A DNA stretch of 64,000 bases, taken from Lewinellaceae bacterium SD302 (GTDB taxonomy: Bacteria; Bacteroidota; Bacteroidia; Chitinophagales; Saprospiraceae). The notes below the pieces were generated by a model, which ran no database searches, had not been told where the DNA came from, and worked only from the letters and a program-made list of their open reading frames with translations. The stretch covers positions 62,001 to 126,000 of the forward strand of contig PDLQ01000011.1 of assembly GCA_002591745.1 (NCBI GenBank), in the 5' to 3' direction. Position numbers and translations under genes: made by a program. Positions 9,156 through 64,000 of this stretch are shown one piece after another. Positions within the stretch are counted from its first letter, which is position 1, and the number at the start of each line of letters is the position of its first letter.

Positions 9156-9336
9156 CTTCAAAGTAGCAAGGCTGGTGGACCCGTCCGCCGAAACGCGACG
9201 GTAGGAGCTGGTTCATCGGGCGAGCGGACATTCTCTGAATTAATGAAAATAGTAGTCACTAACAATGCCCGCTCGGCCGACGAGTCAAGCCTTTCGGGCC
9301 ACCTCAGCGAACGAGCTGAAACTTTGCTACTTTGAA
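9156..9336. repeat. Palindromic dispersed repeat, copy 1 (MITE-like)
   Basis: About 180 bp bounded by inverted copies of CTTCAAAGTAGCAA (9156-9169 and the complement at 9324-9337). Inside, the arms GGTTCATCGGGCGAGCGG (about 9212-9229) and CCCGCTCGGCCGACGAG (about 9267-9283) are near-complements flanking an AT-rich loop of about 40 bases. A second element of the same layout and clear similarity lies at 33214-33383. There is no coding capacity, so if it moves it must depend on an outside enzyme. It sits between ruvA and the Gfo/Idh gene, both on the minus strand. Target-site duplications were not evident by eye. Confidence 0.7.
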
Positions 9337-9348
9337 GTCATAACAACC

Positions 9349-10344
9349 CTACACCGGAATCTTATCCCGGTTCTCCTCCACCGCTTCGCTGATCAGATAG
9401 GCCAGTTCTAATGCCCGGTAACCATCGTGAATACTGACGGCTGGCGTACTGTCTTCATTGATACTGGCGGCCAGACTCTCGAGTTCCAGTTGGATGGCAT
9501 TGACGGGATTTACGTCCGGTTGAGCGATGTCGATGACCTTAACGCCGTCGGCCGTTTCAATGGTCATTTGGGCTGACTCGGGGTCCAGACTAGGATCGTT
9601 AACGTCGAAGAGGCGGATAAACTGGGTTTCCTTGTCCAACAGGTCGATACTGATGTAAGCGTCGGGCTGGAAGAGGCGAATCTTGCGCATGTTCTTCATG
9701 CTGAAACGGCTGGCAGTGAGGTTGGCCACTGCACCATTGACAAACTCGATGCGGGCGTTGACGATGTCCGGGGTCTTGCTGACTACCGCGACACCGCTGG
9801 CCCTCACCTCAGCCACTTCGGAGTTGGCCAGCTTGAGGATGATGTCCAGATCATGAATCATCAGGTCGAGAATAACGCTAACGTCGGTGCCCCGTGGATT
9901 AAAGGTGGCCAGGCGGTGGGCTTCGATGAAGAAAGGACGTAATTGGTGATCGCCCAGAGCCAGTAATGCAGGATTGAAGCGCTCGACGTGACCAACCTGG
10001 ACCTTGAGACCGGTGCGTTCACATATCTCCACCAGTTCTCTGGCCTCCTCCAGGGTGGAGGTCAGGGGTTTTTCCACGAAAACGTGGCGACCGGCAAGCA
10101 GAGCTTGCTTGACCAGTGCGTAATGGGTAGTAGTGGGAGTAACAATATCAACCACATCGCAAGCGGCGATCAGTTCGGCCGGTGAGTCAAAGGCTTCAAG
10201 CTTATATTCCCGGGCTACACTTGCGGCTATTTCAGGATTGGCATCGTAAAAACCGATCAATTCATAGCTTTCCTTAGCCAGGCGAATGCATTTTAAGTGA
10301 ATTTTACCGAGGTGACCGGTACCCAATAGTCCGATTTTAAGCAT
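9349..10344 (-). CDS. Gfo/Idh/MocA family NAD(P)-dependent oxidoreductase
   Basis: This 331-residue cytoplasmic protein has the Gfo/Idh/MocA two-domain layout. The N-terminal Rossmann fold starts at once with GLLGTGHLGKIH (residues 5-16), and the EKP motif that contributes to cofactor and substrate binding is at 91-93. The C-terminal half contains ILDLMIHDLDIIL, with the metal- or substrate-facing histidine and aspartates usual in this family. Such enzymes oxidise or reduce sugars, inositols or related polyols with NAD(P). The substrate cannot be told from the sequence. The gene stands alone between a dispersed repeat and a divergent peroxidase gene, so context gives no pathway. A TAATTTTG box lies 30 bases upstream. 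Confidence 0.9.
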   Translation of the reverse strand: MLKIGLLGTGHLGKIHLKCIRLAKESYELIGFYDANPEIAASVAREYKLEAFDSPAELIAACDVVDIVTPTTTHYALVKQALLAGRHVFVEKPLTSTLEEARELVEICERTGLKVQVGHVERFNPALLALGDHQLRPFFIEAHRLATFNPRGTDVSVILDLMIHDLDIILKLANSEVAEVRASGVAVVSKTPDIVNARIEFVNGAVANLTASRFSMKNMRKIRLFQPDAYISIDLLDKETQFIRLFDVNDPSLDPESAQMTIETADGVKVIDIAQPDVNPVNAIQLELESLAASINEDSTPAVSIHDGYRALELAYLISEAVEENRDKIPV

Positions 10345-10373
10345 GGAAGTCCTGTTTGATGGTGTAATTCGGG

Positions 10374-10381
10374 CAAAATTA
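10374..10381 (-). promoter_or_regulatory. Putative -7 box for the Gfo/Idh gene
   Basis: The minus strand reads TAATTTTG, a match to TAnnTTTG, 30 bases before the start codon at 10344. It lies in the divergent spacer shared with the peroxidase gene. Confidence 0.4.
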
Positions 10382-10435
10382 CGCTAACATTCACGAAGCA
10401 GGGCATCTATGCTATCATGATCCGTCAGAAACTTC

Positions 10436-10443
10436 TATATTTG
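10436..10443 (+). promoter_or_regulatory. Putative -7 box for the peroxidase-like gene
   Basis: TATATTTG matches the Bacteroidota -7 consensus. It lies about 110 bases upstream of the start at 10552. No clear -33 element was seen. Confidence 0.35.
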
Positions 10444-10551
10444 TAACGCTTATTTGTATTTTGCGTTTTGATTGAATAGTAGAGACTTCAGAAGACTACC
10501 TCTGGTTATATGAGCAAAGCGACTCCCCCCTATCGTTTCACTCTGTTTTAG

Positions 10552-18400: not shown

Positions 18401-20398
18401 ATGGTCACCAGTGCCGAGGGATGTGTTGAGGCAGAGTTCATCGACATTGAAAGCAACGGTAGTGGGCAAGCACCAGTCGCCGATTTCACCTTCAGCACTG
18501 CTACTTTGACAGCCACCTTTACCAATACTTCCAGCGACGGAGAAAGTTTCTTTTGGGACTTTGGTGATAATAACGGGACCAGTAACGAGGAAAACCCGGA
18601 GTATGAATTTGACTTCCCCGGTACTTACACAGTCTGCCTGACGACGACCAACGAGTGTGGTAGTGACCAATTCTGTGAGGACGTCACGGTTAATACCGGT
18701 AGTCTAATGCTTGAGATCGGGGACGGTGCGGGTATCTCCGGCCAAGTCGTTTCTCTGCCCGTTACCGTTATCGGTGCGGACAATATTTCCTCCCTGGCCG
18801 GTAGCTTCAATCTGGACAACCCGGCCTTCGGTCAAATAGTTGGTATCACGCCCGTGCTGATTACCCCGAACTTCAACGAGGATGATAACAGCTTCTCCTA
18901 CTTTTCTAATGCTCCGGGTGGTCAGCCGCTGATGGCGCAATTTGAAAACCTGTTGTTCTACCTCCGTGTACAGATAAATGCCAATAGTGGCCAGACCATG
19001 GTACGTTTCTCCGATAGCCCACTGGCGCTGGAACTTTCTGTGGTCAACGGAGCCGGTATCCCAACCGTTATGACCCCGGAGCAGGATCATGGTCAGATCA
19101 ACACCTCATTGCCTGAAAATGCCCAGTTCGACGTTACCGTAACGGACTACGAACTCGACCCGCTGGACAACGTGATTTTCGAGCTGAGCCCCGAAGACAA
19201 CACCTTCCTCACTACGGTTGAAGGGGATGCCAATGGCTACGCTCACCTCGGGATGCAGCAAACCGCCGAGATGTACTACCTCAACGCCAGTCGGGAAGAT
19301 TACGATCCACTCAACGGTATTTCCACCTTCAGCATCTACGTAGGCCAACGCTACTTGCTCGGACTACCTTCTCCGCTCATCACCTCTCCTTATCAGGTGA
19401 TTGCCGGTGATGTGAACTGCAGCGGCTCATTCACTACGCTGGACCTGTTTTTGATGCAGAATATTCTCCTGGGGCAGACCTACAATTTCCCCGATTGTGA
19501 GGATTGGGTATTCATCCATGAAAGCACGGATATGCCCGAGGATTGGGACATCAACAACGTCTTCGATTTCGAAGAAGTGGGTGCGATCGAGTTGATGTAC
19601 GATACGATGACCAGTTTCATCGGAGTACTGCGCGGTGATATGCTTAACAATTCCAACCCCCAAAACCTGCCTGAATTCGAAGGTCGCCAGCCAATGGTGT
19701 TCAAGGCCGAAGTGCCCTCCGTACAGGCCGGTGAATACTTCACAGTCGCTCTGGGTTCCAACCAGCTTGAAGACCTCGTGAGTCTCCAATTCGGACTGGA
19801 TTTTGACGCGAGCAGTATGGAGTACCTGGGTTACGAAGGCGCGTACGGTTTCGAGAATACCGTCATCAGCGATGCCCTGGCGGAACGCGGCAAACTGGCG
19901 CTGAGCTGGTATCCATTGGACGGTATGGCAAACGCCACCGCCCAAGGAGAAGTCGTTTATCTCCGTTTCCGGGCCTTGCGCGACATTAGTGATTTTGGTA
20001 GTTTGACTAACAAAGTAGCAGTGTCTACGTCCGGACTTCAGGCGGTTGCCCACAAGGAGGATCTGGAAATGCTTAAGCCCGTAATCGAACTGTCTAGCCC
20101 GATTGGCAGTGTGTTTGAAAACAGCGCACCAGTTTCGGAAATCTTCCGGGTCGGACAAAACCAGCCCAATCCGCTCAGTGATCTGACGATCATTCCGGTA
20201 GATCTACCACAAGACGGTCCGTTGATTCTGACCATTACCGATGCTCAGGGACGTCAGCTGCTGACACGAGAGCAGGAATTCTCAGCCGGCCGCCAGCAAA
20301 TTACGCTGGATCTCGGTCACCTGGCTTCCGGTCTTTATCACTACCATATCCGCTTCGGAGAGTACTACCAAAGTCTTCCGATGTTGATTCAGCGGTAG
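12488..20398 (+). CDS. Giant modular T9SS-secreted protein (Kazal, SprB-like repeats, PKD)
   Basis: This is a 2636-residue exported protein. In order: signal peptide (to about residue 26); a dockerin-like pair of calcium loops (DIDNNGQVAAAD at 32, DIDGNGRVTETD at 89); three Kazal-like cysteine modules (about 334-488); two PPC-like domains (about 492-745), each with a YY(I/V)VVD strand; about 15 SprB-like modules of roughly 80 residues (about 748-1990); a PKD domain (1997-2070, with FFWDFGDNNGTS); a cohesin-like domain (about 2075-2205); a dockerin-like segment (about 2305); a second cohesin-like domain (about 2403-2520); and a type A T9SS sorting domain (from about 2554, NQPNPLSDLTI). It should pass through SprA and end on the cell surface or outside. 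Adhesion is the likely role. Kazal modules could also resist proteases. Binding partners are unknown. It stands as a single gene ended by a strong terminator. Confidence 0.9.
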   Translation: MMRNSTFVFTCLVYLALLSTFSLSAQQMWPGDIDNNGQVAAADLLYFGHSFDSEGPERPGIVNLSWAPIPMGEIWLDTFPDGHNFAYADIDGNGRVTETDFEHYREYIGRIHGDVEDDILLPTLEDSSLNQLHLVPTGFEVREDGNYLIVDVQVYNYNNPSNRVDDVYGMGLRFSFIPGSLRNTELIVKVPQPSWISAEGETTYSMGMIDSVAGVAEAAFTHRDLVNRTGRGTVMTLDLPLSNYSDVDDLAAASVIVEGAVLVDAEMNLNPFIVAASPITVNNTCSFSIDPVTGADGVVYLNPCFAQDAGNTFYVNGAGYGPGIDVTAIDSTANCDGDYDPVCGFNQATYANACVADAHGVQIYSSGMCSDNDFSCYDPNLIVVSSATTVNTFNGVITVDCPASGEAVQGCDGNVYPNACLAEASGVVSYTVIGDGGNNCIDPDQINPDPDCEETQAFVCGCNEVTYINACYAEAAGVTSYSNGPCGGSSSLCDEAISVSCGDYLPNETTIGAGNQITSYPGCSSSAMMGPDRVYVVQKTGAGDLQIGLEIMTPGLDMDIFLLAGDCNDITCLASSTTSNTITNNEGILLEDAPVGTYYIVVDQQQAGVGGNFRLEVSCGYLDCSNSVPLDCGVTYNGSNINGNDDVSLYTCGNTMNVENNGPEVVHTFTTSETGTVTINLTGLSQNLELFLLSSCDRGACLEFSQNPGTNNEQIIRNLPAGTYYVVVDGYNGAISNYSLNVDCNQTCNLVLQPTGTTDADCGQNNGVFNFSVYNGSPTYVATYTGPISGSAVSNTGHFCFVNLPAGTYTYTVQDGSGCTITSTFTIGDQGDLELVLNPFNAGCGSAGAIGVTVGGSLPPFTVVLSGPTTTVQTVNSQSFNLNDLPAGAYTVSVTNSSGCSATESTYISQGNGNLSFVATPFPEGCGNPGRIHIDVVNGQPDFLVQLSGVVNGSAMVDTDDFNIIDLPAGVYQVTITDAFGCSSQQTVVVPSGELEVQVTANPATCGEAGSAVVSVFSGTPPYTVNYFGPSSGSVVSSNNSILIDDLLSGAYTFSVWDNNGCDITETVYVGSSGSDLQLVVGQASGDCSGNTTPVTFNISGGTPSYSLTYSGPASGTVVINGSGVSSLELPPGNYTFFVTDFAGCTTVESFTVVPPQTGLNVNATLANNGCGQLQDIVTTISGGSAPFFVTVTNNCGLPSQTFMTFNTQFTLDDTENCLYNISVEDANGCSGSDQITVNAGNADLLTLIAGDGACGSTGFIDIIVSGGDDPYYITWTGPVSGNVALISPTYRIEDLPSGTYTVSIITNDGCTDEETIVLNNNGGTIDLISTLVFADCGQYDQIWNDIIGGTPPFTVEIVRLCDGDSTGFLTNDDGFELVDLIPCDYKIKVTDANGCMTMNTVTVFPYQLFDAIPDPGICGQPGQIQINIMNAASSAPYQVSFTGPQNGSFPTNNTSFLLSNLMPGTYTITITDNNGCAETETVELEESFNDLDIQVAVISNDCGQYNQLWNDITGGVPPYTIEVTRLCDNTVDTTFVTSEVSFELFDLEECEYKVKVTDANGCMDMETQVVDPSPVDIFTATPVPGPCGALGRIDVFINGGDPPYQLLYSGPQSGSLTVNTNSVSLNDLPAGTYTLILTDANGCSQLETVTVEVTASDIQIISSLIQNDCGQYNQVWNDIIGGTPPFSIEVLRLCDSTQFSTFNLDDDQFELFDLPPCDYKIIVMDAAGCMSMDTVTVFPTPNAFFELDPFNGECNELGGFTINFLMGTPPYTVQYTGPVGDTVVLTDTLSYTVEDLPSGTYTVIVFDSAGCIQTEQATIVNTTTDLELVTAVILNECGQYNQLWNDIIGGVAPYDVEVLRLCDNTVDTTFTTNSQEFELPNLTPCAYKVIVTDATGCMVMTVSDISSTNANLAEFEVGEDCADAALTITFIDGSGPYQVMLMGMGVQLEFNDIVTPTYVISQIEPGDYMVMVTSAEGCVEAEFIDIESNGSGQAPVADFTFSTATLTATFTNTSSDGESFFWDFGDNNGTSNEENPEYEFDFPGTYTVCLTTTNECGSDQFCEDVTVNTGSLMLEIGDGAGISGQVVSLPVTVIGADNISSLAGSFNLDNPAFGQIVGITPVLITPNFNEDDNSFSYFSNAPGGQPLMAQFENLLFYLRVQINANSGQTMVRFSDSPLALELSVVNGAGIPTVMTPEQDHGQINTSLPENAQFDVTVTDYELDPLDNVIFELSPEDNTFLTTVEGDANGYAHLGMQQTAEMYYLNASREDYDPLNGISTFSIYVGQRYLLGLPSPLITSPYQVIAGDVNCSGSFTTLDLFLMQNILLGQTYNFPDCEDWVFIHESTDMPEDWDINNVFDFEEVGAIELMYDTMTSFIGVLRGDMLNNSNPQNLPEFEGRQPMVFKAEVPSVQAGEYFTVALGSNQLEDLVSLQFGLDFDASSMEYLGYEGAYGFENTVISDALAERGKLALSWYPLDGMANATAQGEVVYLRFRALRDISDFGSLTNKVAVSTSGLQAVAHKEDLEMLKPVIELSSPIGSVFENSAPVSEIFRVGQNQPNPLSDLTIIPVDLPQDGPLILTITDAQGRQLLTREQEFSAGRQQITLDLGHLASGLYHYHIRFGEYYQSLPMLIQR
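16490..18220 (+). repeat. Two-module higher-order repeat inside the giant gene
   Basis: Within the SprB-like region the modules alternate between two types. One type starts with CGQY(N/D)Q.WNDI.GG and contains an RLCD strand; the other has the ordinary CG..G.I form. The first type recurs at about 16497, 16990, 17491 and 17998, a period near 500 bp (about 166 residues). The repeats are recognisable in DNA but diverged, which suggests duplication of a two-module block followed by drift. Confidence 0.75.
18499..18508 (-). repeat. Dispersed decamer CAAAGTAGCA
   Basis: Exact copy on the minus strand, followed there by GTG. It lies in the PKD-coding part of the giant gene and is read as part of TATLTA. 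Confidence 0.7.
20011..20020 (+). repeat. Dispersed decamer CAAAGTAGCA
   Basis: Exact copy on the plus strand, followed by GTG. It lies in the second cohesin-like domain of the giant gene and is read as NKVAV. Confidence 0.7.
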
Positions 20399-22837: not shown

Positions 22838-23200
22838 CTAGGCGGTTATTTTATGGTCTAGCAAAGTAGCAAAGTCGACGTATTGCAGTAAATTTTCGTG
22901 GCAAGCCTCCAGAATCACCGGAGGAGCAAGACCGGCGGCCAGTGCCTCACGCCAGCGTAAGGCGCAGAGGCACCACTGGTCACCGGCTTTGAGCCCGGGA
23001 AAATTGTAGGCAGGCAAAGGTGTGGAAAGATCGTTTCCCCGTCCTTTTGTGAATTCGAGAAATCCCTCCGTCATTCTGGCACAAACCAAATGGCGACCAC
23101 TGTCTTGTGGTCCGGTACGGCAAAAGCCATCACGGTAAAATCCGGTCAAAGGGTCGAAGCAACAGGATTTCAGATCGGTACCCAGTACATTTTTAGCCAT
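22838..23200 (-). CDS. DUF2237 family protein
   Basis: This 120-residue cytoplasmic protein matches the DUF2237 family, whose biochemical role is not established. Typical features are the start NVLGTDLKSCCFDPLTGFYRDG, the cysteine-containing CRTGPQDSGRHLVCARMTEGFLEF and the tryptophan and cysteine block GDQWCLCALRWREA. The C-terminus (FATLLDHKITA) is encoded across an exact copy of the dispersed decamer (22862-22871), and this end looks different from the usual family tail. It stands alone on the minus strand between convergent and divergent neighbours. Confidence 0.85.
   Translation of the reverse strand: MAKNVLGTDLKSCCFDPLTGFYRDGFCRTGPQDSGRHLVCARMTEGFLEFTKGRGNDLSTPLPAYNFPGLKAGDQWCLCALRWREALAAGLAPPVILEACHENLLQYVDFATLLDHKITA
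22862..22871 (+). repeat. Dispersed decamer CAAAGTAGCA
   Basis: Exact copy on the plus strand, followed by AAG, inside the 3' end of the minus-strand DUF2237 gene, where it helps encode FATLL. Confidence 0.7.
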
Positions 23201-26731: not shown

Positions 26732-26741
26732 CAAAGTAGCA
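26732..26741 (+). repeat. Dispersed decamer CAAAGTAGCA
   Basis: Exact copy on the plus strand, followed by GTG, in the 69-base spacer between the deiodinase-like gene and the META-domain gene. Confidence 0.7.
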
Positions 26742-28345: not shown

Positions 28346-30790
28346 TTAATGAACCCCTCCACAACCGATCGGAGAGCCGTCCGGGATGCGAGGGGCAGGA
28401 GCTGGCTTGAAAGATTTAGGGTCGCGGTTAAACTGAGCGACCAGCATTTCAATCAACGCCGTATGTCCCTTGCCTAAACCGTTCATGGAAAGATTGTTCA
28501 CCAATTGCAGTGCTTCTCCCCTTACAGCCGGTGAATTTTTCTCAGTGGCGGCCAAAGCGAGAAGGTGTTGTACGAAGCGATGGTGTACGGCTTCGGCGAT
28601 CTGGTTACGGTGAAGATCAGATTCATTGGCCGCCGCATCTGCCAGCCTTGCTTCTATGCTAGCCAAAAAATCGCGCAGGGAAAGTAATTCATCACTTTGG
28701 TCCAGGGCGAATTGTTGGTGAACGCGTTCCAGTCGGTCCGGATGTAGTAAGTACTTCAGGCTATGTTCCGCTGAAGCAGTAGCTGCCGCGAGAGGATCAA
28801 ATACGCTACCGGTATTAGGGCTAAAGTATTCGCGGCCCCGGCCATAGCCCTGAGCGGGCGGGAAAAGTAATTTCCGCACATCGGGGGGGATTTCCAGGAA
28901 AGCAGGCTTAAGGGTGTTCACCAGAGCAGCGAAGGCTTCGTTCTGCCGTTCCGGTTTGACTGAGGTGACCCGGTAACCGCTGCCATCGTAGCTGCCTGAA
29001 TTTACCGAATAATCGTAGCGGACCCCTCCGATCAATTTGGCGGCACCTTCTACCTGGTAGCGGTGCATGAGGTAGACCGGGACAAATACCCGTTCGAGTT
29101 CACTCAGCGGCGTGCCGTCCGGAATATTATTGATGTTTAATTTTTTTAGCGCAGACTGGCGTACTTGTCCGATCCGCTCCAACTCCCGGGCGGCGTTGGC
29201 ACCATTATCCCACAGATGGGCACTTGGCTGAGCACTACCGACGGGGCGGGCATCAGCGTCGGAAATGTAACTCAGGCCGAGTCGATCATTTTCTTCCAGG
29301 ATGTCGATCAGCTGCTGGCGCTCGTCGGTTCCGGACGGAAAATCCTGGTAGCCATAAAGTACCGTCCGTTTATCCCATTCACCGATTCCGACGGCGTAAG
29401 CTTCCTCCAGGTTAACCGATCCGTCCTCATCCAGAAAAGCGTAGGGGTGAGGATAATCCATGACCGATGATCGATCGTTGGTGGAAGCAGCAAAGTTGTG
29501 GGCCAGGCCGATCGTATGCCCCACTTCATGAGCGCTCAACTGCCGTAGGCGGGCCAATGCAAGAGCCTCCATACGGGGATCGGGGGTGATACCGTCCTTG
29601 CCATAGGCGTCGATCAGCCCCTGGGCGATCAGGAAATCCTGGCGAACCCGTAAGCTGCCCAGCAGGACGTGTCCTTTGATGATCTCGCCGGTGCGGGGAT
29701 CGACTACGGAGGAACCGTAGCTCCAGCCCCGGGTGCTGCGGTGGACCCAGTTGATCACGTTGTAGCGGACGTCGAGCGGGTCGGCGTCCTCGGGCAGCAG
29801 TTTAACCTGAAAAGCATTTTCGTAGCCGGCTGCTTCAAAGGCCTGGTTCCACCAGCTTGCTCCTTCGATCAGGGCACTGCGGATGGGCTCCGGAGCTCCC
29901 CGGTCCAGATAATAAACGATGGGTTCTTTGGCAGTAGTGACTTTGGCAGCAGGGTCTTTCTTTTCCAGCCGGTGGCGGGTAATGAAGCGCTTTTGCAGCG
30001 GCTGGCTGATTGGCGTGGCGTAATCCGCATAGGAGCGAACGAAGTAGCCGCTGCGGGGATCGAAAGTTCTGGGTTGATAGTTATCGTCCGGCAACTCCAC
30101 AAAGCTGTGGTGCATACGCAGACTGAAAGCTTCGCCATTAGGGCTTACAGAACGAAGCTGGCTGCCCGTAGCTTCCCCGCTGAAAGTGACCAAGGCTTCA
30201 AATTCGCTGTTCTGGGGGAAATTTTTCGTGCGTGGCAGGTAGACGGCGGAGCGGGCGGCATCCACCTTAAAGCTACCTTGCTTTTTGCTCTTGAGTCTTC
30301 GGGCAACGCCGTGAGCGTCGGACAACAGCATGGGCGTCATATCTACCAATAACTTGCCATCACCTTGGGCAGTCAGTTTGAAGCCGGCCAGGGCAGAGCT
30401 GGCAAAAGCATCCGCTACACTTTGTTTCTCGTCTTCGTTGTCTGAAATGGCCCGGTAGCGAAGGTTGCGCTCCAATAAGAGGATTTTGGGACCGCTACGT
30501 TCAAAGTGAACGACCCGGTTATTGCCGAGTTGATTGCGATCCAGGCCGATATCGTTACTCCCCAAACCGGCGGAAAGACTATTGACGTAGAGAAAATCTT
30601 CCCCCAGTCTGTTTTCCGGGATGGCGAGGTAGATCTTGCCTTCTTCCTCGCTCCAGTAAAAGTCGTAAAAACCCGTGTATGCTTTCAGCGAGGCTACCTT
30701 TTCAGTAAAAGTGGGTGTCTTCTTTTTTGGGCTTTGGGCGAAAAGGCTCAAAGTGAGCAATAAGCTAACGGATAGAAACAAATAGCGCAA
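28346..30790 (-). CDS. Secreted zinc-dependent metalloprotease (DUF5117/DUF4953 type)
   Basis: This 814-residue exported protein has the layout of the large Bacteroidota metalloproteases annotated by DUF5118, DUF5117 and DUF4953. A signal peptide (MRYLFLSVSLLLTLSLFAQ) is followed by a beta-rich N-terminal region (about 30-260). The catalytic motif AHEVGHTIGLAHNF is at about 419-432, with a Met-turn SVMDYPHP about 12 residues later, and a helical C-terminal part ends near PIGCGGVH. The metzincin motif HExxHxxxxxH is intact, so activity is likely. Natural substrates are unknown. There is no T9SS sorting domain, so it may stay in the periplasm. The flavin reductase gene follows closely on the same strand. 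Confidence 0.88.
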   Translation of the reverse strand: MRYLFLSVSLLLTLSLFAQSPKKKTPTFTEKVASLKAYTGFYDFYWSEEEGKIYLAIPENRLGEDFLYVNSLSAGLGSNDIGLDRNQLGNNRVVHFERSGPKILLLERNLRYRAISDNEDEKQSVADAFASSALAGFKLTAQGDGKLLVDMTPMLLSDAHGVARRLKSKKQGSFKVDAARSAVYLPRTKNFPQNSEFEALVTFSGEATGSQLRSVSPNGEAFSLRMHHSFVELPDDNYQPRTFDPRSGYFVRSYADYATPISQPLQKRFITRHRLEKKDPAAKVTTAKEPIVYYLDRGAPEPIRSALIEGASWWNQAFEAAGYENAFQVKLLPEDADPLDVRYNVINWVHRSTRGWSYGSSVVDPRTGEIIKGHVLLGSLRVRQDFLIAQGLIDAYGKDGITPDPRMEALALARLRQLSAHEVGHTIGLAHNFAASTNDRSSVMDYPHPYAFLDEDGSVNLEEAYAVGIGEWDKRTVLYGYQDFPSGTDERQQLIDILEENDRLGLSYISDADARPVGSAQPSAHLWDNGANAARELERIGQVRQSALKKLNINNIPDGTPLSELERVFVPVYLMHRYQVEGAAKLIGGVRYDYSVNSGSYDGSGYRVTSVKPERQNEAFAALVNTLKPAFLEIPPDVRKLLFPPAQGYGRGREYFSPNTGSVFDPLAAATASAEHSLKYLLHPDRLERVHQQFALDQSDELLSLRDFLASIEARLADAAANESDLHRNQIAEAVHHRFVQHLLALAATEKNSPAVRGEALQLVNNLSMNGLGKGHTALIEMLVAQFNRDPKSFKPAPAPRIPDGSPIGCGGVH

Positions 30791-33213: not shown

Positions 33214-33383
33214 CGAAACTAAAGTAGCAGTGTTTGCTCGTCCGCTGATACGCGACGAAGGAACTGGTTCATCGGCCGAGCGGGTTTCTATTAATTATTA
33301 CTATAAATACAAATCCGTTCGGCCGGCGAGTCAGGCCACAAGCATCCGTCTCGGCCGACGAACTCGCATGGCTACTTTGTTAG
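33214..33383. repeat. Palindromic dispersed repeat, copy 2 (MITE-like)
   Basis: About 170 bp bounded by TAAAGTAGCAGTG (33220) and the complement of CAAAGTAGCCATG (33367-33379). It shares with the element at 9156-9336 the segments CGTCCGC, ACGCGACG, CTGGTTCATCGG, CGAGCGG, CGGCC-GCGAGTCA and a central AT-rich loop (TATTAATTATTACTATAAATA). The arms TCATCGGCCGAGCGGG and CCGTTCGGCCGGCGAG pair across the loop. An extra arm copy CTCGGCCGACGAACTCG follows (about 33353). It lies about 70 bases before radA. Confidence 0.7.
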
Positions 33384-45272: not shown

Positions 45273-47204
45273 ATGATAAAAAAAAGCCCCCGGTGGAGGG
45301 CCTCCGGCCTGAAGTACTCGTTAGAGCAGCAACTGGAGATCTCCGGTGAAAACAATTGGTCGACCCCGGTAATCTATCGGGATGGTCCGAGGTATTCGCC
45401 AGAGCAGAAAAGGCAACAACATTCGGGCCAGAGGTTCTCGACCCTGTGGATTCTACTGATTGTGTTTTTACCAACACTGCTACTTTGCAGCCACTTGAAT
45501 GGCCAAAAATTAGAGCTGAACATCCAAACTGATGATTTTAGCTGGGAAGATAATGTACCCTCCTTTACCAGTCTCAGTGAGCTGAATGACTACCTCACCG
45601 AATGGAGAGACCGCCAATTTCAAGATGCCTACTGGGAGGCCTCAGTAGATAGTTTGTTGCAACTGGACTCTCTTAACTACCAAGCTCACCTGCATCGTGG
45701 ACCGGCCTATCAATGGCAAGATTTGCGCCCCGACGCTACAATCCCACCCCGTTGGTTGAGCAAGGCGGGCTTTCGGACCAGGCTATTTCGCAAGGGTCGA
45801 CTGCTGGTTCACGAAGATTGGCTGATTGTCCGTGACAGCCTGGCCAGCACAGCGGCGAATAACGGCTATCCGTTTGCTTCCGTGGGGCTGGACAGTATTG
45901 AATGGTCAGCTCCGGGAGTACTAAGCGCCGGCATTTTTATTGACCGGGACAGCTTGATATTTTTCGGCGCACCCCGTATCCCGGAGGGTGCCCGCATCAA
46001 CCAAACTTTTATTCAACGTTACCTGAACATCACACCGGGAGAGCCCTACAATCGGCGTACTATACAACGTTTGCCAAACCGGCTGCGACGATTGCCCTAC
46101 CTGAAGCTCCGGGGAGACCCCACGGTGACTTTTGAGGGCAATGAGGCCATCATCGAACTTCCCCTGGAGCGTAAAGCCGCCAGTCGGTTCGATTTCGTGA
46201 TCGGCGTACTGCCCAATAGCGCTCAGACGGGCAACTTGCTGATTACCGGAGAGCTGAACGGAGAGTTGCAAAATGGCTTGGGACAAGGTGAGCGCATTGC
46301 CGTCCGTTTTCAGCAATTACGGCCCCAGACCCAGGAATTGCAGCTTCAATTCGAGTATCCTTACTTACTCAATCTCCCTTTCGGCTTGGCTGTCGAGGGA
46401 GATCTCTATCGCCGCGACACCCAGTTCATCAACCTGAATTACCGTTTGGCGGCGACCTACCGCTGGCGAACAGCCAACCGGATCGATGTCTTCTGGAGCC
46501 GTCGCCAGACCAACCTACTCGGCTTCGATGAAAGCCGGGTAGTCATTACCGATCAGCTGCCGGATACCCTGGACGTCAGGCGTTCTTTTTTTGGTTTGGG
46601 CATCGACCGGGATGAAACCGATCAAGTCTTTAATCCTCGCCGCGGTTACCGTCTCGGGCTGAGTCTGTCTGCGGGTAATCGGCGTATCAAGCGTAACCAA
46701 AAACTACTGGATCTTGGCCTGGGGCCACGCTACGACAGCCTTGAACTTGATAACGCCCAGTACAACCTGACCGGGCAAGTACAGTATTATCGCCCTTTAC
46801 TAGCCGGTACGGTACTCTACCTGGGGGTTAATGCAGGTGCTTATCTCAGCGATGCCCCCCTGTTGCCCAATGAGCAATATCGACTTGGTGGTGCTAAGCT
46901 ACTAAGGGGTTTTGACGAGCAGCAGGTATTCGCATCTTCCTATGCCATCCTCACTACGGAGTTGCGGTTATTACTGGGCCGTGATGCCTATCTCTATACC
47001 TTCGGTGATTTTGCTTACGTTAATCCCCGCAATCAGGCCATCCCCGATGCCCCCAATGACTACCCCCTTGGTTTTGGAGCGGGGCTGAGTTTTAATTCAA
47101 AAGCCGGCATTTTTGCGGTGAGCCTGGCTTTAGGTCGTCGCAGTGGAGAAGTTTTAGACGTAGGGGCGCCTAAGGTACATTTTGGCTATTTGAGTGTATT
47201 TTAA
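45273..47204 (+). CDS. BamA/TamA-family outer-membrane beta-barrel protein
   Basis: The product is 643 residues long from the ATG at 45273. From about residue 44 there is a normal signal peptide (FSTLWILLIVFLPTLLLCSHLNGQ), then one or two POTRA-like segments (INQTFIQRYLNITPGEPYNRRTIQ... about 240-300) and a C-terminal barrel typical of Omp85 proteins (LGLGIDRDETDQVFNPRRGYRLGLSLSAG, and LRGFDEQQVFASSYAILTTELR, the conserved L6-loop RGF). It may insert barrel proteins or export a substrate. The 43-residue stretch before the signal peptide is odd, with repeated YSLEQ/YSPEQ/FST motifs and an A-run of eight at the start, so the true start is uncertain. It overlaps or abuts lnt. Confidence 0.85.
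   Translation: MIKKSPRWRASGLKYSLEQQLEISGENNWSTPVIYRDGPRYSPEQKRQQHSGQRFSTLWILLIVFLPTLLLCSHLNGQKLELNIQTDDFSWEDNVPSFTSLSELNDYLTEWRDRQFQDAYWEASVDSLLQLDSLNYQAHLHRGPAYQWQDLRPDATIPPRWLSKAGFRTRLFRKGRLLVHEDWLIVRDSLASTAANNGYPFASVGLDSIEWSAPGVLSAGIFIDRDSLIFFGAPRIPEGARINQTFIQRYLNITPGEPYNRRTIQRLPNRLRRLPYLKLRGDPTVTFEGNEAIIELPLERKAASRFDFVIGVLPNSAQTGNLLITGELNGELQNGLGQGERIAVRFQQLRPQTQELQLQFEYPYLLNLPFGLAVEGDLYRRDTQFINLNYRLAATYRWRTANRIDVFWSRRQTNLLGFDESRVVITDQLPDTLDVRRSFFGLGIDRDETDQVFNPRRGYRLGLSLSAGNRRIKRNQKLLDLGLGPRYDSLELDNAQYNLTGQVQYYRPLLAGTVLYLGVNAGAYLSDAPLLPNEQYRLGGAKLLRGFDEQQVFASSYAILTTELRLLLGRDAYLYTFGDFAYVNPRNQAIPDAPNDYPLGFGAGLSFNSKAGIFAVSLALGRRSGEVLDVGAPKVHFGYLSVF
45478..45487 (-). repeat. Dispersed decamer CAAAGTAGCA
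   Basis: Exact copy on the minus strand, followed there by GTG, inside the signal-peptide region of the BamA-like gene and read as LLLCS. Confidence 0.7.
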
Positions 47205-50222: not shown

Positions 50223-50223
50223 C

Positions 50224-51240: not shown

Positions 51241-52565
51241 TCTTTGCTGGCGTTCAGAAAAGCTTTCACGGCATGATGACTAACCGTTCGCTCGGCAAAA
51301 TGGCTAACGGCTTCGCGGCGCTGACACTCGTTGGCATCCAACGACTGGAGGATATTTTGCAGGTGCATTTTCATGTGCCCCTTCTGGATACCCGTAGTGA
51401 CCAGGCTGCGTAAAGCGGCGAAATTCTGAGCCAGTCCGGTAGCCGCTACGATCTCCATCAACTCCGTCGCCTTGGGGCGGCCAAGTAGGTCGAGGCTGAA
51501 ATTCGCCAGGGGGTGTAGTTTGGTCAAACCGCCTACCGTGCCTAGTGCCAGCGGCAAACTCAGTTCAAAAAGGAACTGTCCAGTACTGATTTCGCAACGG
51601 CTCAGGCTGCGGTATTGTCCGTCGCGGGCAGCGTAAGCGTTTACGCTGGCTTCCACGGCCCGAAAATCGTTTCCTGTAGCCAATACAACGGCATCCACCC
51701 CATTCATGATTCCCTTATTGTGGGTAACTGCCCGATAGGGATCTTCAGTGGCGATCTTGACCGCCAGTTCAAATTTTCGGCTGAATTCGTGGGCGTCGAT
51801 GCCACTGCCTGCAACCTGCATTGCTTCTATGTCAGCCATAACCCACGCTCTGACTATACAGTTCGGTGTATAATTACTGAGGATGGCCATGATGATTTCC
51901 ACCTCCCGCTCGTCGTCACTAAGGTCGGTACTACAAGCAATCCACTTCGTGAGTTGGTTGCCATACTCTTCGAGGATAGTGTTGATGAAATTAGCCCCCA
52001 TACTGTCCTGGGTATTGAAGCTTACCAGCAGTTGATAATAATCCGGTGCTACGGCCGGCAGATGCTTCCAAGTAAGGCCCAACACACCTCCACCGCGGGC
52101 TTCCATTCGTTCGGTGAGATGGGCAGTGGACTGACGCAAACGCGCCTCCAGTCTGGGCAATAAAGCGGCCCGACGTTCCGGTTTCCCATTCCAGCGAAAA
52201 TGCAGTTGGCCGAGCTTTTCAGCGGCCACTACTTCGGCCTGAAACCCGCCGCGGCTGAACCAGAACTTGGCCGCGCTGCTGGCCGCTGCCACCACGCTGC
52301 TTTCCTCGATCACCATTGGTACCAGGTAATTACGTCCGTTGACTAAAACGTTGGGGGCTACACCAAACGGTAGCGGAAAGTTAGCGACGGTGTTTTCGCT
52401 GAAATTGTCCATCGTTTGCTGCAACTGCTCGGAGGCAACGTCGAATTGGGAAAGCTGCTCGTTATTCAGGTCTGAACCGATACTATCGTAAATGAGCCGG
52501 CGCTGCTGCGCCTTGGTCAGTTTACTAAAGCCATTGATCAATGACGGATGGGGCATAGTGGACAA
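51237..52565 (-). CDS. mvaA: Hydroxymethylglutaryl-CoA reductase, class II
   Basis: This 442-residue protein is a class II (bacterial) HMG-CoA reductase. It shows the early block LPFGVAPNVLVNG, the catalytic Glu in MVIEESSVVAAAS (about 81-93), the Lys in THNKGIMNGVDAVV, the Asp in GNDFRAVEASVNAYAA and a C-terminal His region (HFAERTVSHHAVKAF). It converts HMG-CoA to mevalonate with NAD(P)H, or the reverse. Beside a type 2 isomerase and a GHMP kinase a biosynthetic role is likely, although class II enzymes include degradative ones. HMG-CoA synthase and diphosphomevalonate decarboxylase are not in the window. The gene is preceded by idi2 with six bases between. Confidence 0.95.
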   Translation of the reverse strand: MSTMPHPSLINGFSKLTKAQQRRLIYDSIGSDLNNEQLSQFDVASEQLQQTMDNFSENTVANFPLPFGVAPNVLVNGRNYLVPMVIEESSVVAAASSAAKFWFSRGGFQAEVVAAEKLGQLHFRWNGKPERRAALLPRLEARLRQSTAHLTERMEARGGGVLGLTWKHLPAVAPDYYQLLVSFNTQDSMGANFINTILEEYGNQLTKWIACSTDLSDDEREVEIIMAILSNYTPNCIVRAWVMADIEAMQVAGSGIDAHEFSRKFELAVKIATEDPYRAVTHNKGIMNGVDAVVLATGNDFRAVEASVNAYAARDGQYRSLSRCEISTGQFLFELSLPLALGTVGGLTKLHPLANFSLDLLGRPKATELMEIVAATGLAQNFAALRSLVTTGIQKGHMKMHLQNILQSLDANECQRREAVSHFAERTVSHHAVKAFLNASKE

Positions 52566-54664: not shown

Positions 54665-54943
54665 ATGGCCACCGAATACCTGACCATCCGGCAAATCAGC
54701 AGCTTTCACCGCTGTGAGGAGACCTTGATCGTGGAGCTGATCGAATGTGGGGTCTGCCAAAGTAGCAATGTTGCTGAAGACGTCACCACGATAAAGGCCA
54801 GCGACCTGCCGCGACTGGAAAAAGCGCTCCGGATTTACGAGGAATTAGGGGTAAACCCGGCGGGAATTCACATCATTCTCAACCTTCTGGACCGTATTGA
54901 ACAATTGTCTGCGGGTCCCAGACCGCCCGTTGACGACTTGTAG
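54665..54943 (+). CDS. cbpM: CbpM-like chaperone modulator
   Basis: This 92-residue protein resembles CbpM/MerR-type modulators: TEYLTIRQISSFHRCEETLIVELIECG, then DLPRLEKALRIYEELGVNPAGIHIILNLLDRIEQL, the helical family pattern. CbpM binds the J domain of CbpA and blocks its action on DnaK. It is directly downstream of the cbpA-like gene. An exact decamer copy lies within it (54758-54767), read as QSSNV. A terminator-like hairpin follows. Confidence 0.85.
   Translation: MATEYLTIRQISSFHRCEETLIVELIECGVCQSSNVAEDVTTIKASDLPRLEKALRIYEELGVNPAGIHIILNLLDRIEQLSAGPRPPVDDL
54758..54767 (+). repeat. Dispersed decamer CAAAGTAGCA
   Basis: Exact copy on the plus strand, followed by ATG, read in cbpM as QSSN. 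The copy at 63772 gives the same residues in its own gene. Confidence 0.7.
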
Positions 54944-54988: not shown

Positions 54989-54999
54989 CAAAACACTTT

Positions 55000-56218: not shown

Positions 56219-56228
56219 TGCTACTTTG
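56219..56228 (-). repeat. Dispersed decamer CAAAGTAGCA
   Basis: Exact copy on the minus strand, preceded by TAA and followed by ATG, in the spacer between the rhodanese gene and the T9SS cargo gene. Confidence 0.7.
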
Positions 56229-56248
56229 TTAGTTCAAATATATTCGCG

Positions 56249-58735: not shown

Positions 58736-58753
58736 GGGGAATACAGTCTTACA

Positions 58754-58805
58754 GTCTTGTGGTCATACGGTCTTACGGGTTCGTAAGACCGTATGACCAC
58801 AAGAC
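58754..58805. repeat. Perfect 24-bp hairpin
   Basis: GTCTTGTGGTCATACGG... pairs with its complement over 24 bp (58754-58777 with 58782-58805) around the loop GGTT. It fills the 75-base spacer between two minus-strand genes. The upstream bases ACAGTCTT repeat in tandem. There is no T-tract on the minus strand. It may be a terminator, an mRNA-stability element or a repeat-family member. Confidence 0.8.
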
Positions 58806-58810
58806 CACTA

Positions 58811-61800
58811 TTAATTACAGTCTGAAGGGCGGTCTTTAGCCAAAAACACCTTGATCGGTGAACTGACGTCCAGCATGCGGCCGGCGGCCGGTTCGGTTTT
58901 GTAGATATAGGCATCGTCACGGCGGGTAACGTCATTGGCCATGTAGCCTTCTACTTCACCGATGACAAGGCTGGTACCGCTGACAATGAAAACGGCCTCA
59001 CTGTACCTGCGGCAGACAATATTCGGAACTTTAACTTCTCCGGTCTGACGTACAGTGACAACGAAGTTCAATTTGGCTCCTTGGGGAACCTTAACGCCAC
59101 GGCGCAAATCTTCGTCGGTAATCTTTTCATCTTCAAAGAAGAAATGGAGAATGGTGTTTTCTTCCTGTTTGGGGTCGTAAACCTGGTCGCTAACGACGTA
59201 CTGAATTTTCAAAGCGTCCAGTTTGCGGGTGTACTGCTCGTAGTCATAATTACCTACCAGCGGCGGCAAAGATACCTGCGGAGCCTCGCTGCTCAGGGTC
59301 GTCAGGTAAATCGAGCGGTTGCTCTTCACCAGACTCCCGGCGCGTGGTGTTTGCTGGACGACCAGCCCCGGCTCCCGAAATGGATCGAAGGGCCCCTCGA
59401 TAACTTTGATCGTCAAGTCTTTGGCGTCAGCAATTTTATGTGCTTCGTCGATGCTGATGTCTACGAAATCAGGGAGTTCAATACCTTCCCCATGGTTGGT
59501 ATAAAGAGGTAAAAAAGCCCGCAAAAGCATAAATCCAACAATCAGCCCCAGCACCAATACGCCGAGGTTGCGCCAGAAATAACTATTGAGTACGAAATCT
59601 TTAGTGGCCAGCAGATACCGTTTCCAGTTGGGCTGATCGTCCGTAAATTTACTGTCAGGCTGATCGACGTATTCCGTTTCCTGATAAGCCGGTTCGGTTT
59701 CCAGGTCGGTTTCGGAATATTGGGTTGGTTCATTCGTCATCGTGGAAGCTATAACGGTTTTTTGGCGTACGTCCGTATGATCACGGGCGGGAGAAAGAGT
59801 AGGGGTTGTTCCGGAGCGGCGTTCTTCGCGCCGGCGGCCGAAGGTCAGCAACTGGTCGATGAAACCATAGGGCTGATAACCAGCAATGGCTGCCTGGTGA
59901 AAAATAGCCGTAGCCGGGGTAATGCCGGGCAGACTATTGATCTCGATCACGAGTGTTTCCACCCGCCCATCGGCGTAAATACGCACGAAGGCATCGATAC
60001 GGCAATAACCGGTCACCCCCATCAATTGTGCGGCCCGGCAGAGGTCTGCTTTTACTTTCGGGGCGATTTCATCGTAGCTGAAGCGATCCGTGTACAGTCG
60101 GGCGGGGGTCAGGTTCTGTCCTTCGCCCGCAAGGAACTTCTCTTCCAGACTCAGGATAGCACCACTGGCCAGGGCTTCACTGGGCTCGAAAAGTTCGTAA
60201 TAATAGTCGCCATTTTGACTATCAATGTAGCAATGTTCTTTCCCAAGGACCGGAGGCGGCGGGCTTCCAAAATGAGTGACCAGGCCACCAGTGATCTCCA
60301 GAAATTTTTCGGCACCTTTAGCTTCGATGAGTTCTTCGAAAAGAACCTGGGTCTTGACCGGAAATTCCTCCTTGGCTTTCAACTTTAGTTCCCGGCGGGC
60401 CGCAGCCTCATCCAGGTCATCAACTAAAAAGATCAGGCGGCAATAGGCGTGTAATTCATCCCGCCCCCTAATGAGCATGACCGCCGAACTGCAACCGTCA
60501 TCCACCGGTTTGGCGATAAAAGGGTATCCGAGTCTACCTTCCACCGTTTCGTAGAATTTTTCCTCGTCAGACAGAAAACCGGCCTTCTCCATTAGCAGTT
60601 GATCGGCAACGGGCAGGCCGGCCTCCTTCAGCGTTTGCAGGGTCTTGTACTTGTTGATCGTCCGGCTGGAACTCTTCACCCCGGAGCCGTTGTAGGGAAT
60701 CCCCCGGGCATCCAGTTGCATTTGTACCTGACCATCCTCTCCCGGCCGCCCGTGCAGGGCAATGAATACTTCGTCCACCTCTTTGGACAGGCGGTCCCAA
60801 TTGGTTTCTTGCGGTGAGAAAACCACGTTCGGGTCGGCGTAAATGGCCGTGATCGGTTTACACTCTCTGCGGATACCCGCCAGTACGGGGTGGTCTTTGA
60901 ATTGCAAGACTTTCTCCCGAATGTCGTCGGCGTTGTCCTTCAGCAGCAGATTGATGGGGAGCTGGTGAAGTTCGTAAGCACTGGAACTGCCAGCCTTACC
61001 ATCCGCCACGGCTACTTTAGCTGCGGTGGTCGTCGCCAGTCCCTCGGAGTTATCAGCCAAACCAGTCAGAAAAACCGGGATCGGCGTGTACTTATCACTG
61101 CTGGCCAACTTCTCAAATACGTTGCGACCACTCTCTACGCTGATGTGGCGCTCGAAACTGGTGCCACCCAGTAAGACGGCTACTTTGATGCGATCATCCG
61201 CTGCGGCTCGTAATGCCTTTACCGCCCCGTCGAGTTGCTGCATGAGTTCCCCGGCAAATTCGTTACCCTCCGCTAATCGCTCCTGGAGCGAAGCTCGTAA
61301 AATATAGGTCAGGAACTGACTGGGATTAAGTCCGATCTCCGCTGCCTGGTGAAAAAAGAAGGAAGACGGCAGCATCCCGGAGGTAGTATTCGGGTCGTTG
61401 AGGAAGATTTCACCGGCCGCCGTATGAAAACCGTCAATGCGGGCGTAGGTGGCGAAACCCAATTCGGTGAACAGCCGTTCGGTTTCCCGGCGAATCGCCT
61501 CAATGCGATCGTTCGGCAGGTCAATCGGCGTGATCTTGCGGCTGAGGCCCGGCAAATACTTGCTACGGTAATCGAAAACCTCGGAGCCTTTGACAATCTC
61601 GGTAGGGGGTAGGGCCACGCAGCCACCATCGGGCGTTCGCAGTACGATGGTGCTGAATTCCTTCCCATCAATAAACCCTTCCAGAATAACCCGGCTTTCG
61701 TTTTCGTGGGCTTCCAGAATGACAAGGCCGCCGGGGTCGGTCTGAGACTTGCTGTCCAGGTAACGGAGCAATTCTTCGGGATGGTATATGGTGAGGCGAT

Positions 61801-62626: not shown

Positions 62627-62662
62627 ACTGTTGCTTTACCAAGCCAGGATGGGCTCGGTGGG

Positions 62663-62670
62663 CAAAGGTA
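62663..62670 (-). promoter_or_regulatory. Putative -7 box for the Ddl/PASTA gene
   Basis: The minus strand reads TACCTTTG, a match to TAnnTTTG, 37 bases before the start at 62626. Confidence 0.45.
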
Positions 62671-62682
62671 AGGATTGCGGAT

Positions 62683-63336
62683 TCAATCTTTACCGCCGTA
62701 TTTAGCTACCAGTTCTTCCACCAGATACAAGCCGGGGTGCTTGGGTGGGTCCATCTTATCAATGCGGTCCTTGACGTTGGCGTAGAGGTCGCTTAGTTTG
62801 ATCGTCAGATCAAGGGACTGGATGGTGAATTCAGCGTCGAGGCCCTCGTGATCGTCGATCCGCCAGAGATCACTGTCCGGATGACGGTAGCTGGACTCTA
62901 CAGCGAATTTATCCTGATAGATCAGCAGATAATTCTGCAGCGAAGGGAGCTTGCGATAGCGGTGAAACTTGGGACCGCGATCACTATTCTTCGAAGAACT
63001 TGAAATGACTTCAACGATCAACGTAGGATTGCCGATTGCTCCGGTAATCTCTTCCGAATGTTCTACTTCACCACAAACTACCGAGGCATCCGGGTAGACA
63101 TAGGTGTTTTCCTGGGCAATTTCAATTTTCATTTCGGAATTGAAAGTCATGCAAGATTTCCCCTTAAGTCCATTAAAAAGCATTGCGGAAACATCCATAC
63201 ACAATACTGAATGCTCAAACGTCCCACCCGCCATCATGCGCAGATTGCCGTTGAAGTATTCAATCTTTTCCTGGGAGTTGGCTTCAACCTCCTGATATTC
63301 TTTGGGGCTGATCCATTTTTTGGCGGGCTGTTCCAT
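62683..63336 (-). CDS. Uma2-family (DUF820) nuclease-like protein
   Basis: This 217-residue protein fits the Uma2/DUF820 family, a PD-(D/E)xK nuclease fold. The N-terminal MEQPAKKWISPKEYQEVE..., the strand VYPDASVVCG with Asp, and NPTLIVEVISSSSKNSDRGPKFHRY with the Glu-x-(Lys/Ser) and Arg-Lys set are the family core. Its role in most bacteria is unknown; many copies occur in cyanobacteria and mobile contexts. The sequence is more AT-rich and has different codon use from its neighbours, suggesting transfer. A TATCTTTG box lies 17 bases upstream. Confidence 0.85.
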   Translation of the reverse strand: MEQPAKKWISPKEYQEVEANSQEKIEYFNGNLRMMAGGTFEHSVLCMDVSAMLFNGLKGKSCMTFNSEMKIEIAQENTYVYPDASVVCGEVEHSEEITGAIGNPTLIVEVISSSSKNSDRGPKFHRYRKLPSLQNYLLIYQDKFAVESSYRHPDSDLWRIDDHEGLDAEFTIQSLDLTIKLSDLYANVKDRIDKMDPPKHPGLYLVEELVAKYGGKD

Positions 63337-63352
63337 AAATCATCGCTTTCAC

Positions 63353-63360
63353 CAAAGATA
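63353..63360 (-). promoter_or_regulatory. Putative -7 box for the Uma2 gene
   Basis: The minus strand reads TATCTTTG, 17 bases before the start codon, which would give a very short leader. Confidence 0.4.
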
Positions 63361-63367
63361 ACGGAAT

Positions 63368-64000
63368 TTACTCCGGTGGAGTTGCGTAAGGAACAGCCGG
63401 CAACCTCCAGTAACCTCGCTCGTTTACCTGTCTTAACGGAAACTCGGTCCAGGGAGTAACGAAAAGAGTATCCGAGGCGAGTTGGTCTGCTTTTGTCGCC
63501 GGATCGGAGAGGGGAAGTAAAGTGACGGGGCGGTCAGTTTCAGTGGCCGACTGGATCAGTGTTTCGTAGGGCAAGCCCCAGTCCATTTTAAGTAGCTCCT
63601 GATTGAGGGTGCCGGGATCAATTACTTGCCTTTGATCGGTGGCGGCGGCGCTGAGTTCACGGAGATAATCGACACGGGCCGAATAATCTTCGCTGTTCCA
63701 GGCAATCAGACCGAGACGAGCAGTGAAGAAGATCGCCCAGAAGATCAAGGCAAGGTTTAACCAACCAGCATTGCTACTTTGATAGCCAACACCCTTTCTC
63801 CACAAGGGAAAAACTTCCACAATCAAAGGCACCAGTAGAAAAGCCAGCAAAGGATAATAATTCACCTCGGCATAGAAGCGGTGTTCGGCCGCCGGGTCGC
63901 CGATGGCGTTCAGCAGCATGAACCCCATTGTCGCCAGCCAGAGCAATGCCGTACCCCAAAACTGTTTTTTACGCAACAACCAGCCGCTGACCAGCAACAG
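63368..64000 (-). CDS. C-terminal part of a multi-pass membrane protein (cut by window edge)
   Basis: The frame is open to the right-hand edge, so only the last about 210 residues are seen and the start lies outside the window. Three or four hydrophobic segments (ALLWLATMGFMLLNAIG, YYPLLAFLLVPLIVEVF, LNLALIFWAIFFTARLGLIAW) are followed by a soluble C-terminal part of about 95 residues. HRFYAEVNYYPLLAF resembles the last helices of glycosyltransferase-39-like membrane proteins, but I cannot assign a family. A copy of the dispersed decamer (63772-63781) is read as QSSNAG. Confidence 0.6.
   Translation of the reverse strand: MLLVSGWLLRKKQFWGTALLWLATMGFMLLNAIGDPAAEHRFYAEVNYYPLLAFLLVPLIVEVFPLWRKGVGYQSSNAGWLNLALIFWAIFFTARLGLIAWNSEDYSARVDYLRELSAAATDQRQVIDPGTLNQELLKMDWGLPYETLIQSATETDRPVTLLPLSDPATKADQLASDTLFVTPWTEFPLRQVNERGYWRLPAVPYATPPE
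63772..63781 (-). repeat. Dispersed decamer CAAAGTAGCA
   Basis: Exact copy on the minus strand, preceded by TAT and followed by ATG, within the membrane protein gene and read as YQSSN. Confidence 0.7.

Follow-up and report, generated by a model that had tools for sequence, protein, structure and literature searches.

Strand-wise spaced ~30-bp motifs with dialects as candidate self-DNA signals in the genus Neolewinella

A stretch of 64,000 nucleotides from Lewinellaceae bacterium SD302 (contig PDLQ01000011.1, positions 62,001 to 126,000; hereafter the window) raises the question of what purpose is served by a ten-base word, CAAAGTAGCA, that is present there in 12 exact copies where 0.09 are expected. 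The copies were first listed in an earlier note made from the sequence alone, with coordinates and strands that were all correct, and none of 100 dinucleotide shuffles of the window reached this number. With up to one mismatch allowed, the window contained 18 sites against 3.4 expected; the one-mismatch sites previously listed at 33220, 33370, 38095 and 61178 were recovered, that listed at 60235 is correctly placed at 60223, and one at 12092 had been overlooked. Our answer, to which we assign a probability of about one half, is that the decamer is the core of SD302's own dialect within a genus-wide set of self-DNA signals in Neolewinella, which would resemble in their working the DNA uptake sequences (DUS) of Neisseriaceae and the uptake signal sequences (USS) of Pasteurellaceae.

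A count across the SD302 genome (5,478,864 bp in 147 contigs), named beforehand in the earlier note as a possible refutation of the over-representation, confirmed it instead. CAAAGTAGCA occurred 1,344 times, 669 times forward and 675 times in reverse, or about once per 4 kb, whereas the reversed word used as a control occurred 16 times (7 and 9); a massive genome-wide excess of a short motif, shared equally between the strands, is a feature of known uptake sequences. Logos based initially on 108 exact sites and then on 215 exact sites in 857,632 bp revealed a full motif that is non-palindromic and about 30 bp long, with graded flanks. The upstream flank is T-rich from −12 to −7, followed by G/T, R, C/A, Y (almost solely T or C) and two loose bases; the core is followed by R, mostly T, G (96%), Y and Y, and weak conservation extends from about 16 bases before to 28 bases after the core start. 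The division of the next three bases into RTG and ARG classes, proposed from the window, applied to 181 of the 215 sites, the stronger rule being the G in third position. Across 36 positions the 246 sites with the same 9-base core, CAAAGTAGC, contained 30.6 bits of information; the selection of sites by this core accounts for about 18 of them. One-mismatch cores exceeded the Markov expectation in the 857 kb in a few variants only, namely CAAAGTAGCC (23 vs 5.9 expected), TAAAGTAGCA (12 vs 2.9), CAAGGTAGCA (10 vs 1.9) and CAATGTAGCA (8 vs 1.3). In the same sequence a minor second core, CATAGAAGCA, was found 11 times against 0.7 expected, including two copies in the window, with the same flanks as the main motif. 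Its intermediates were present in 0 and 1 copies against 1.0 and 2.6 expected, which is weak evidence because so few were expected.

The excess of CAAAGTAGCA was found in none of the 20 other genomes of the GTDB genus of Neolewinella (hereafter congeners), nor in 39 relatives; among 398 genomes sampled from the family, SD302 and the congeners included, SD302 alone showed it. CAAAGTAGCANTG occurred 733 times in SD302 and at most nine times in any other genome of that sample. Counting k-mers in 20-kb pieces of the congeners identified a counterpart, CGCAGGTGCA, with 1,193, 1,134, 1,098, 756, 640, 617, 594, 578, 518, 364, 252, 232, 230, 213, 163, 135, 123, 84, 61 and 28 copies in the 20 genomes; reversed controls gave 2 to 30, and 19 of the 20 were well above their control. 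In SD302 both CGCAGGTGCA and its control occurred 11 times. The two decamers are in register without gaps and identical at 6 of 10 positions (C--AG--GCA). The motif of congener G005 (23 sites) has both the T-rich upstream end and the G at the same downstream position; that of congener G002 (22 sites) has a clear G and a weak T-rich end. Variant cores were identified in G015 (CGCAGGTGCC), G019 (CGCGGGTGC) and G004 (CGCRGGAGC). CAAAGTAGCA, CGCAGGTGCA and these variants behave like dialects that share inner positions among related species, as do those of known uptake sequences. Among 248 genomes of the order, CGCAGGTGCA counts above 60 were restricted to this genus, the highest elsewhere being 48 (control 4), 42 (control 27) and 41 (control 7), at most a mild excess. 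A search of the genome_contigs set with the long congener motif returned at least 120 stretches and, among the matches listed, 79 of 80 were titled Neolewinella, Lewinella, Saprospiraceae or Bacteroidia, the remaining one Bradyrhizobium. Carriers of the congener motif include the cultured species N. persica, N. agarilytica and N. aurantiaca. The exact 19-mer of the SD302 dialect had no match in this set, of which the SD302 record may not be part. In a tree of ComEC and a phosphorylase, rough because homologues were trimmed to begin at their first Met, SD302 formed a long branch beside the clade containing the eight genomes richest in CGCAGGTGCA (support 0.92).

Three further observations concern the dialects. 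Core positions 3 and 6 covary, A..T being replaced by T..A in CATAGAAGCA and by C..G in the congener dialect, with complementarity kept. Congener G001, with 28 copies of CGCAGGTGCA against 15 of the control, has hardly any excess and no clear substitute in the approximately 150 kb examined; it may be without the motif system through loss. By eye, G002 and G005 have a second, GGCAGTG-like piece about 24–32 bases past the core at variable spacing, which was not evident in SD302.

The spacing of the sites depends on their orientation. Neighbouring sites were opposite in 171 of 235 cases, a value reached in none of 10,000 permutations, and pairs of the same orientation within 2 kb numbered 8 where about 69 were expected. 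The deficit was present at 15–100 bp (1 vs 3.0), 100–250 bp (0 vs 5.3), 250–500 bp (1 vs 8.8), 500–1,000 bp (2 vs 17.5), 1–2 kb (4 vs 34.6) and 2–3 kb (18 vs 34.1), with 28 against 33.7 at 3–4 kb and values close to expectation beyond. When strands were shuffled in 5,000 trials, same-orientation pairs within 2 kb averaged 44.9 and never numbered fewer than 27, vs the 8 seen. Opposite pairs were slightly reduced at 0.5–4 kb (99 vs about 120 expected; lowest bin 8 vs 17.3, for −..+ pairs at 1–2 kb) and enriched below 250 bp, for which intergenic crowding would account at least partly; facing pairs no more than 250 bp apart were enriched four- to fivefold (20 pairs). Each strand taken singly was regular, with a variance/mean of 0.36–0.49 and a coefficient of variation of spacing of 0.53. 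Even spacing has also been reported for known uptake sequences (Karlin, cited in PMC1939737). Gene layout is not the cause of the exclusion, since same and opposite pairs within 2 kb numbered 2 and 20 within genes, 1 and 42 between genes and 5 and 19 in mixed pairs. The pattern recurred in G002 with its other dialect (87 sites on three contigs), where 62 of 84 neighbours alternated and 1.2% of same-strand gaps were below 2 kb against 21.3% expected. Chi sites of Escherichia coli, taken as a control for sites whose action depends on orientation (60 sites in five 50-kb stretches, 250 kb), clustered instead: 32 pairs of like orientation lay no more than 2 kb apart where 17.5 were expected.

The even strand split had previously been taken to argue against a polar signal, which agrees with the lack of correlation with GC skew described below; the sites are nevertheless not orientation-blind, as same-orientation copies exclude each other over 2–3 kb. 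This exclusion suggests that orientation matters here, though spacing is not uptake. If a single site were enough for a fragment to be taken up, any second site nearby would be redundant in either orientation; as this was not seen, the two orientations would serve separate processes, which means two strands or two directions of travel.

Where copies could be compared, they appear to have arisen by substitution. Usable homologues were available for 14 genic sites in all fetched sequence, and at least one ungapped homologue for 10 of these; a gap lay close to the site in 13 of 62 alignments, compared with 128 of 620 for positions drawn at random, so that there was no sign of insertion at these 14 sites. 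In a phosphorylase-like gene of the window both decamer sites were ungapped against 17 congeners (for the site at 41164, 2 of the 17 pairwise alignments had a gap within 5 residues), and the base changes had also altered amino acids. Origin by point change has been described for known uptake sequences (PMC1939737). A mobile short repeat such as a miniature inverted-repeat transposable element (MITE) or a repetitive extragenic palindrome (REP) was rejected on the lack of homology beyond the ~30-bp motif and of a gap excess at genic copies.

Of 246 CAAAGTAGC sites, 151 lay between genes and 90 within them, the other 5 being at the ends of stretches. Their density was 0.128 per kb in genes and 0.76–1.26 per kb across four kinds of intergenic gap, i.e. 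approximately eightfold higher between genes than inside them. A promoter function was rejected because both senses were used, with 49 sites directed toward the next gene and 41 away from it in tandem gaps, and 52 sense and 38 antisense sites in genes; divergent gaps, in which 38 of 47 sites were directed toward the nearest gene, gave the one favourable result. Terminators were rejected as well, opposite pairs at 15–100 bp numbering only 9 among the 246 sites. An apparent avoidance of convergent gaps (0 sites in 5.6 kb early on) disappeared once further sequence was added and the gene calls were improved (14 sites, 0.76 per kb). Across 42 windows, neither GC skew (rho −0.16) nor the strand of genes (rho −0.22) correlated significantly with net orientation. 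With GC skew as a proxy for replication, there was neither an origin-to-terminus polarity of the type of FtsK-orienting polar sequences (KOPS) nor a leading-strand bias of the Chi type, and the lack of replication bias is another feature of uptake sequences.

We favour an uptake-type signal that works by strand or by direction with a reach of 2–3 kb, because the motif is like uptake sequences in its length and flanks, its dialects, its origin by substitution and the absence of a replication bias. In this model DNA from related cells would be bound at the motif by a surface or periplasmic receptor, each site would let in or process a few kb of one strand (or in one direction), and the admitted stretch would recombine via ComEC, DprA and RecA. 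Biased uptake would spread sites until each strand had one every few kb, a second same-way site nearby would add nothing, and a change in receptor specificity may have switched the dialect in the SD302 lineage. We put forward only tentatively, at a little less than even odds, the more specific proposal of a self-DNA code read strand by strand, in which each ~30-bp site would license one strand or direction for a few kb without a type IV pilus and lineages would switch code through a change of reader.

Regarding machinery, an open frame for ComEC was found in all 21 genomes of the genus and DprA in SD302. Minor pilins, the known class of receptor, are unlikely here because no convincing ATPase of a type IV pilus or type II secretion system was identified. 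Transformation of Riemerella, also of the Bacteroidota, involves ComEC, DprA, ComF and RecA as well as four proteins outside the known machinery (PMC8459023), which makes uptake without a pilus plausible, and a preference for own DNA has been reported for R. columbina (PMC7965970).

One locus of SD302 (L129:5673-10601; G000:C115) encodes a CarboxypepD_reg outer-membrane protein and, after it, a lipoprotein that carries three DUF5689 domains. An adjacent pair that is its counterpart in Riemerella is essential for transformation (PMC8459023). DUF5689 was found in 1 of the 21 genus genomes, that of SD302, and in none of the 20 congeners, of which two have a completeness of only 55% and 88%; in other genomes the outer-membrane protein was matched only in part. 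The pair is preceded by two MbnP genes and, by our reading, two cytochrome c peroxidase-like genes, and its role may for this reason be in metal uptake. Genes private to one genome are, in our judgement, common. In view of this, of the motif-bearing congeners without DUF5689 and of these neighbours, the pair was not relied on as the receptor.

Several results weigh against an uptake-type signal. The classical model does not predict orientation-specific exclusion, because in Haemophilus influenzae the orientation of the strongest site was no predictor of uptake (PMC1939737), and the same author judged uptake sequences to be less even than a structural role would require (PMC1939737). ComEC and DprA say little about competence, as the searches for them also matched 10 and 11 of 14 well-known control genomes. 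The search for a pilus in SD302, which covered only the motor ATPase family of type IV pili and type II secretion systems, gave two hits, a partial one scoring at the cut-off (24.9 bits) and another that fell short of it. One-mismatch cores were in only mild excess overall (104 vs 73 for the reversed control), the orientation of sites in divergent gaps is not predicted by uptake, and the substitution test was small, 35 of its 62 alignments coming from the two sites in the phosphorylase-like gene and several others being weak. Finally, related viral contigs in IMG/VR carry the congener motif, which uptake alone does not predict.

The viral pieces concerned were L213, L218, L222, L224, L225, L227–L229, L232, L233, L235, L239, L241 and L242, with families for tail tape measure, tail, head protease and endolysin in L228 and L229. 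One contig, IMGVR_UViG_3300012037_000001, had at least four decamers in about 22 kb, a figure biased upward because pieces were picked round matches. The SD302 dialect was found in 13 viral stretches with one match each, to which no weight was given.

The presence of the congener motif in viral contigs, some with tailed-phage genes, would be expected if the motif protects DNA, as in the main alternative, a Chi-like site. A helicase-nuclease would enter at a DNA end, travel one way and degrade the DNA until it met the first site in the right orientation, where it would turn to recombination; such a site might also serve, within the cell, to license self-DNA that comes in. Each direction would need no more than one site every few kb, so that copies in the same orientation would be redundant and opposite ones independent; the spacing pattern, seen in two dialects, is thereby predicted directly and explained as well as it is by uptake. 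Known Chi sites, which are recognised by RecBCD or AddAB, are 5–8 nt long and co-oriented with replication, with a leading-strand bias, and a change of dialect inside one genus would be unusual for Chi. The motif described here is far longer, at ~30 bp with a T-tract, it has no replication-strand bias by GC skew and it changes within the genus, and Chi of E. coli clusters in the same orientation, so that we regard a Chi-like function as unlikely, though still to be reckoned with.

Binding by a chromosome-organising (nucleoid-associated) protein for which each strand must have regularly placed sites would agree with the regular spacing, the intergenic preference and an orientation uncorrelated with gene strand or GC skew; however, a structural protein should not distinguish same from opposite orientation over 2 kb, and the nearly invariant core is another sequence in congeners, which makes this explanation improbable. 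If a gene-transfer agent or transducing phage packaged DNA from the sites, or initiated there, moved pieces of a few kb one way and so spread the motif by recombination, this would account for directionality, reach and presence in viral contigs, but we know of no sequence-specific packaging at ~1,300 sites and consider this very improbable. The footprint or end of a small mobile repeat, which the enrichment of close facing pairs might recall, can hardly be reconciled with conservation that ends at ~30 bp, no gap excess at genic copies, mostly single copies and same-orientation exclusion; of the two possibilities raised from the window, a protein-recognised site fits and a repeat footprint fits poorly.

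The sites of the window are given in the table below. Eight of the 12 exact copies had been placed in genes; according to our own, crude gene calls six are genic (18499, 20011, 40832, 41164, 54758 and 63772), and that at 45478 coincides with a disputed gene start.

Table. Motif sites in the window (scores from the motif matrix, cut-off 8)
Core	Position	Strand	Context	Score
Exact	9159..9168	+	Intergenic; faces copy at 9325	
Exact	9325..9334	-	Intergenic	
Exact	18499..18508	-	Within large called gene; peptide TATLT	
Exact	20011..20020	+	Same large called gene as 18499; peptide NKVAV	
Exact	22862..22871	+	Intergenic	
Exact	26732..26741	+	Intergenic	
Minor variant CATAGAAGCA	28649..28658	-	Full flanks	20.9
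One mismatch TAAAGTAGCA	33220..33229	+	Faces 33370 site; uncertain, outside matrix hits	
Variant CAAAGTAGCC	33370..33379	-	Full flanks	33.1
Variant CAAAGTAGCC	38095..38104	+	Uncertain	under cut-off
Exact	40832..40841	+	Nucleoside phosphorylase-like gene (protein reading); ungapped at site in alignment to 17 congeners	
Exact	41164..41173	-	Same phosphorylase-like gene; peptide LLLCQ; multiple alignment with 17 congeners ungapped	
Exact	45478..45487	-	Gene start	
Minor variant CATAGAAGCA	51822..51831	-	Flanks present	15.6
Exact	54758..54767	+	Short called ORF; peptide QSSNV	
Exact	56219..56228	-	Intergenic	
One mismatch CAATGTAGCA	60223..60232	+	Good flanks	23.9
Variant CAAAGTAGCC	61178..61187	-	Weak flanks	12.4
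Exact	63772..63781	-	Called gene; peptide QSSNA; best score of the window	39.4

As the earlier note had stated, no described Bacteroidota motif like CAAAGTAGCA was found, nor anything relevant on uptake sequences in Bacteroidota or competence in Lewinella; this is weak evidence, because only open-licence papers were covered. A strong uptake preference for a short motif has been described for two families, the Pasteurellaceae and Neisseriaceae (PMC7811141). If uptake is the correct explanation, Neolewinella would provide a third, independent case in another phylum, apparently free of a pilus motor, where dialects differ within the genus and orientation follows a rule that can be measured; uptake signals would then exist outside these families, in a form in which orientation counts, and the origin, spread and change of such signals, as well as DNA intake by these Bacteroidota, would become testable.

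Compared with known systems, the sites would share with Chi an orientation-dependent logic with a reach of a few kb, which would yield the observed spacing, and differ from it in that Chi clusters in the E. coli sample whereas same-orientation copies exclude each other here. Riemerella transformation is likewise a Bacteroidota system with ComEC, DprA, ComF, RecA and proteins outside the known machinery; it differs in that the terms 'uptake sequence' and 'uptake signal' are absent from the main text of that report (PMC8459023) and in that DUF5689 is limited to a single genome of the 21 in this genus. As in the DUS of Neisseriaceae, there are many exact copies of about 10 bp (1,892 in Neisseria meningitidis; PMC7811141) and in-register dialects with an invariant sub-core (PMC3630211). 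Phylum and sequence are different, the motif is longer, no convincing motor of a type IV pilus was found here, same-orientation copies exclude each other, and inverted pairs, numerous for DUS (PMC3630211), are few below 100 bp (9 opposite pairs at 246 sites). Because the search for a pilus motor gave no convincing candidate, and because uptake is our inference, the system is not classed as a member of DUS or USS but as one that may work like them. In H. influenzae, which has 1,465 copies of the USS core, 17% of sites in one strain lie within 30 bp of another (PMC7811141), whereas here orientation governs spacing. With the USS of Pasteurellaceae the motif has in common a core with graded flanks, its T-tract resembling the AT tracts of USS, an origin by point mutation and the lack of a chromosomal orientation bias (PMC7811141, PMC1939737).

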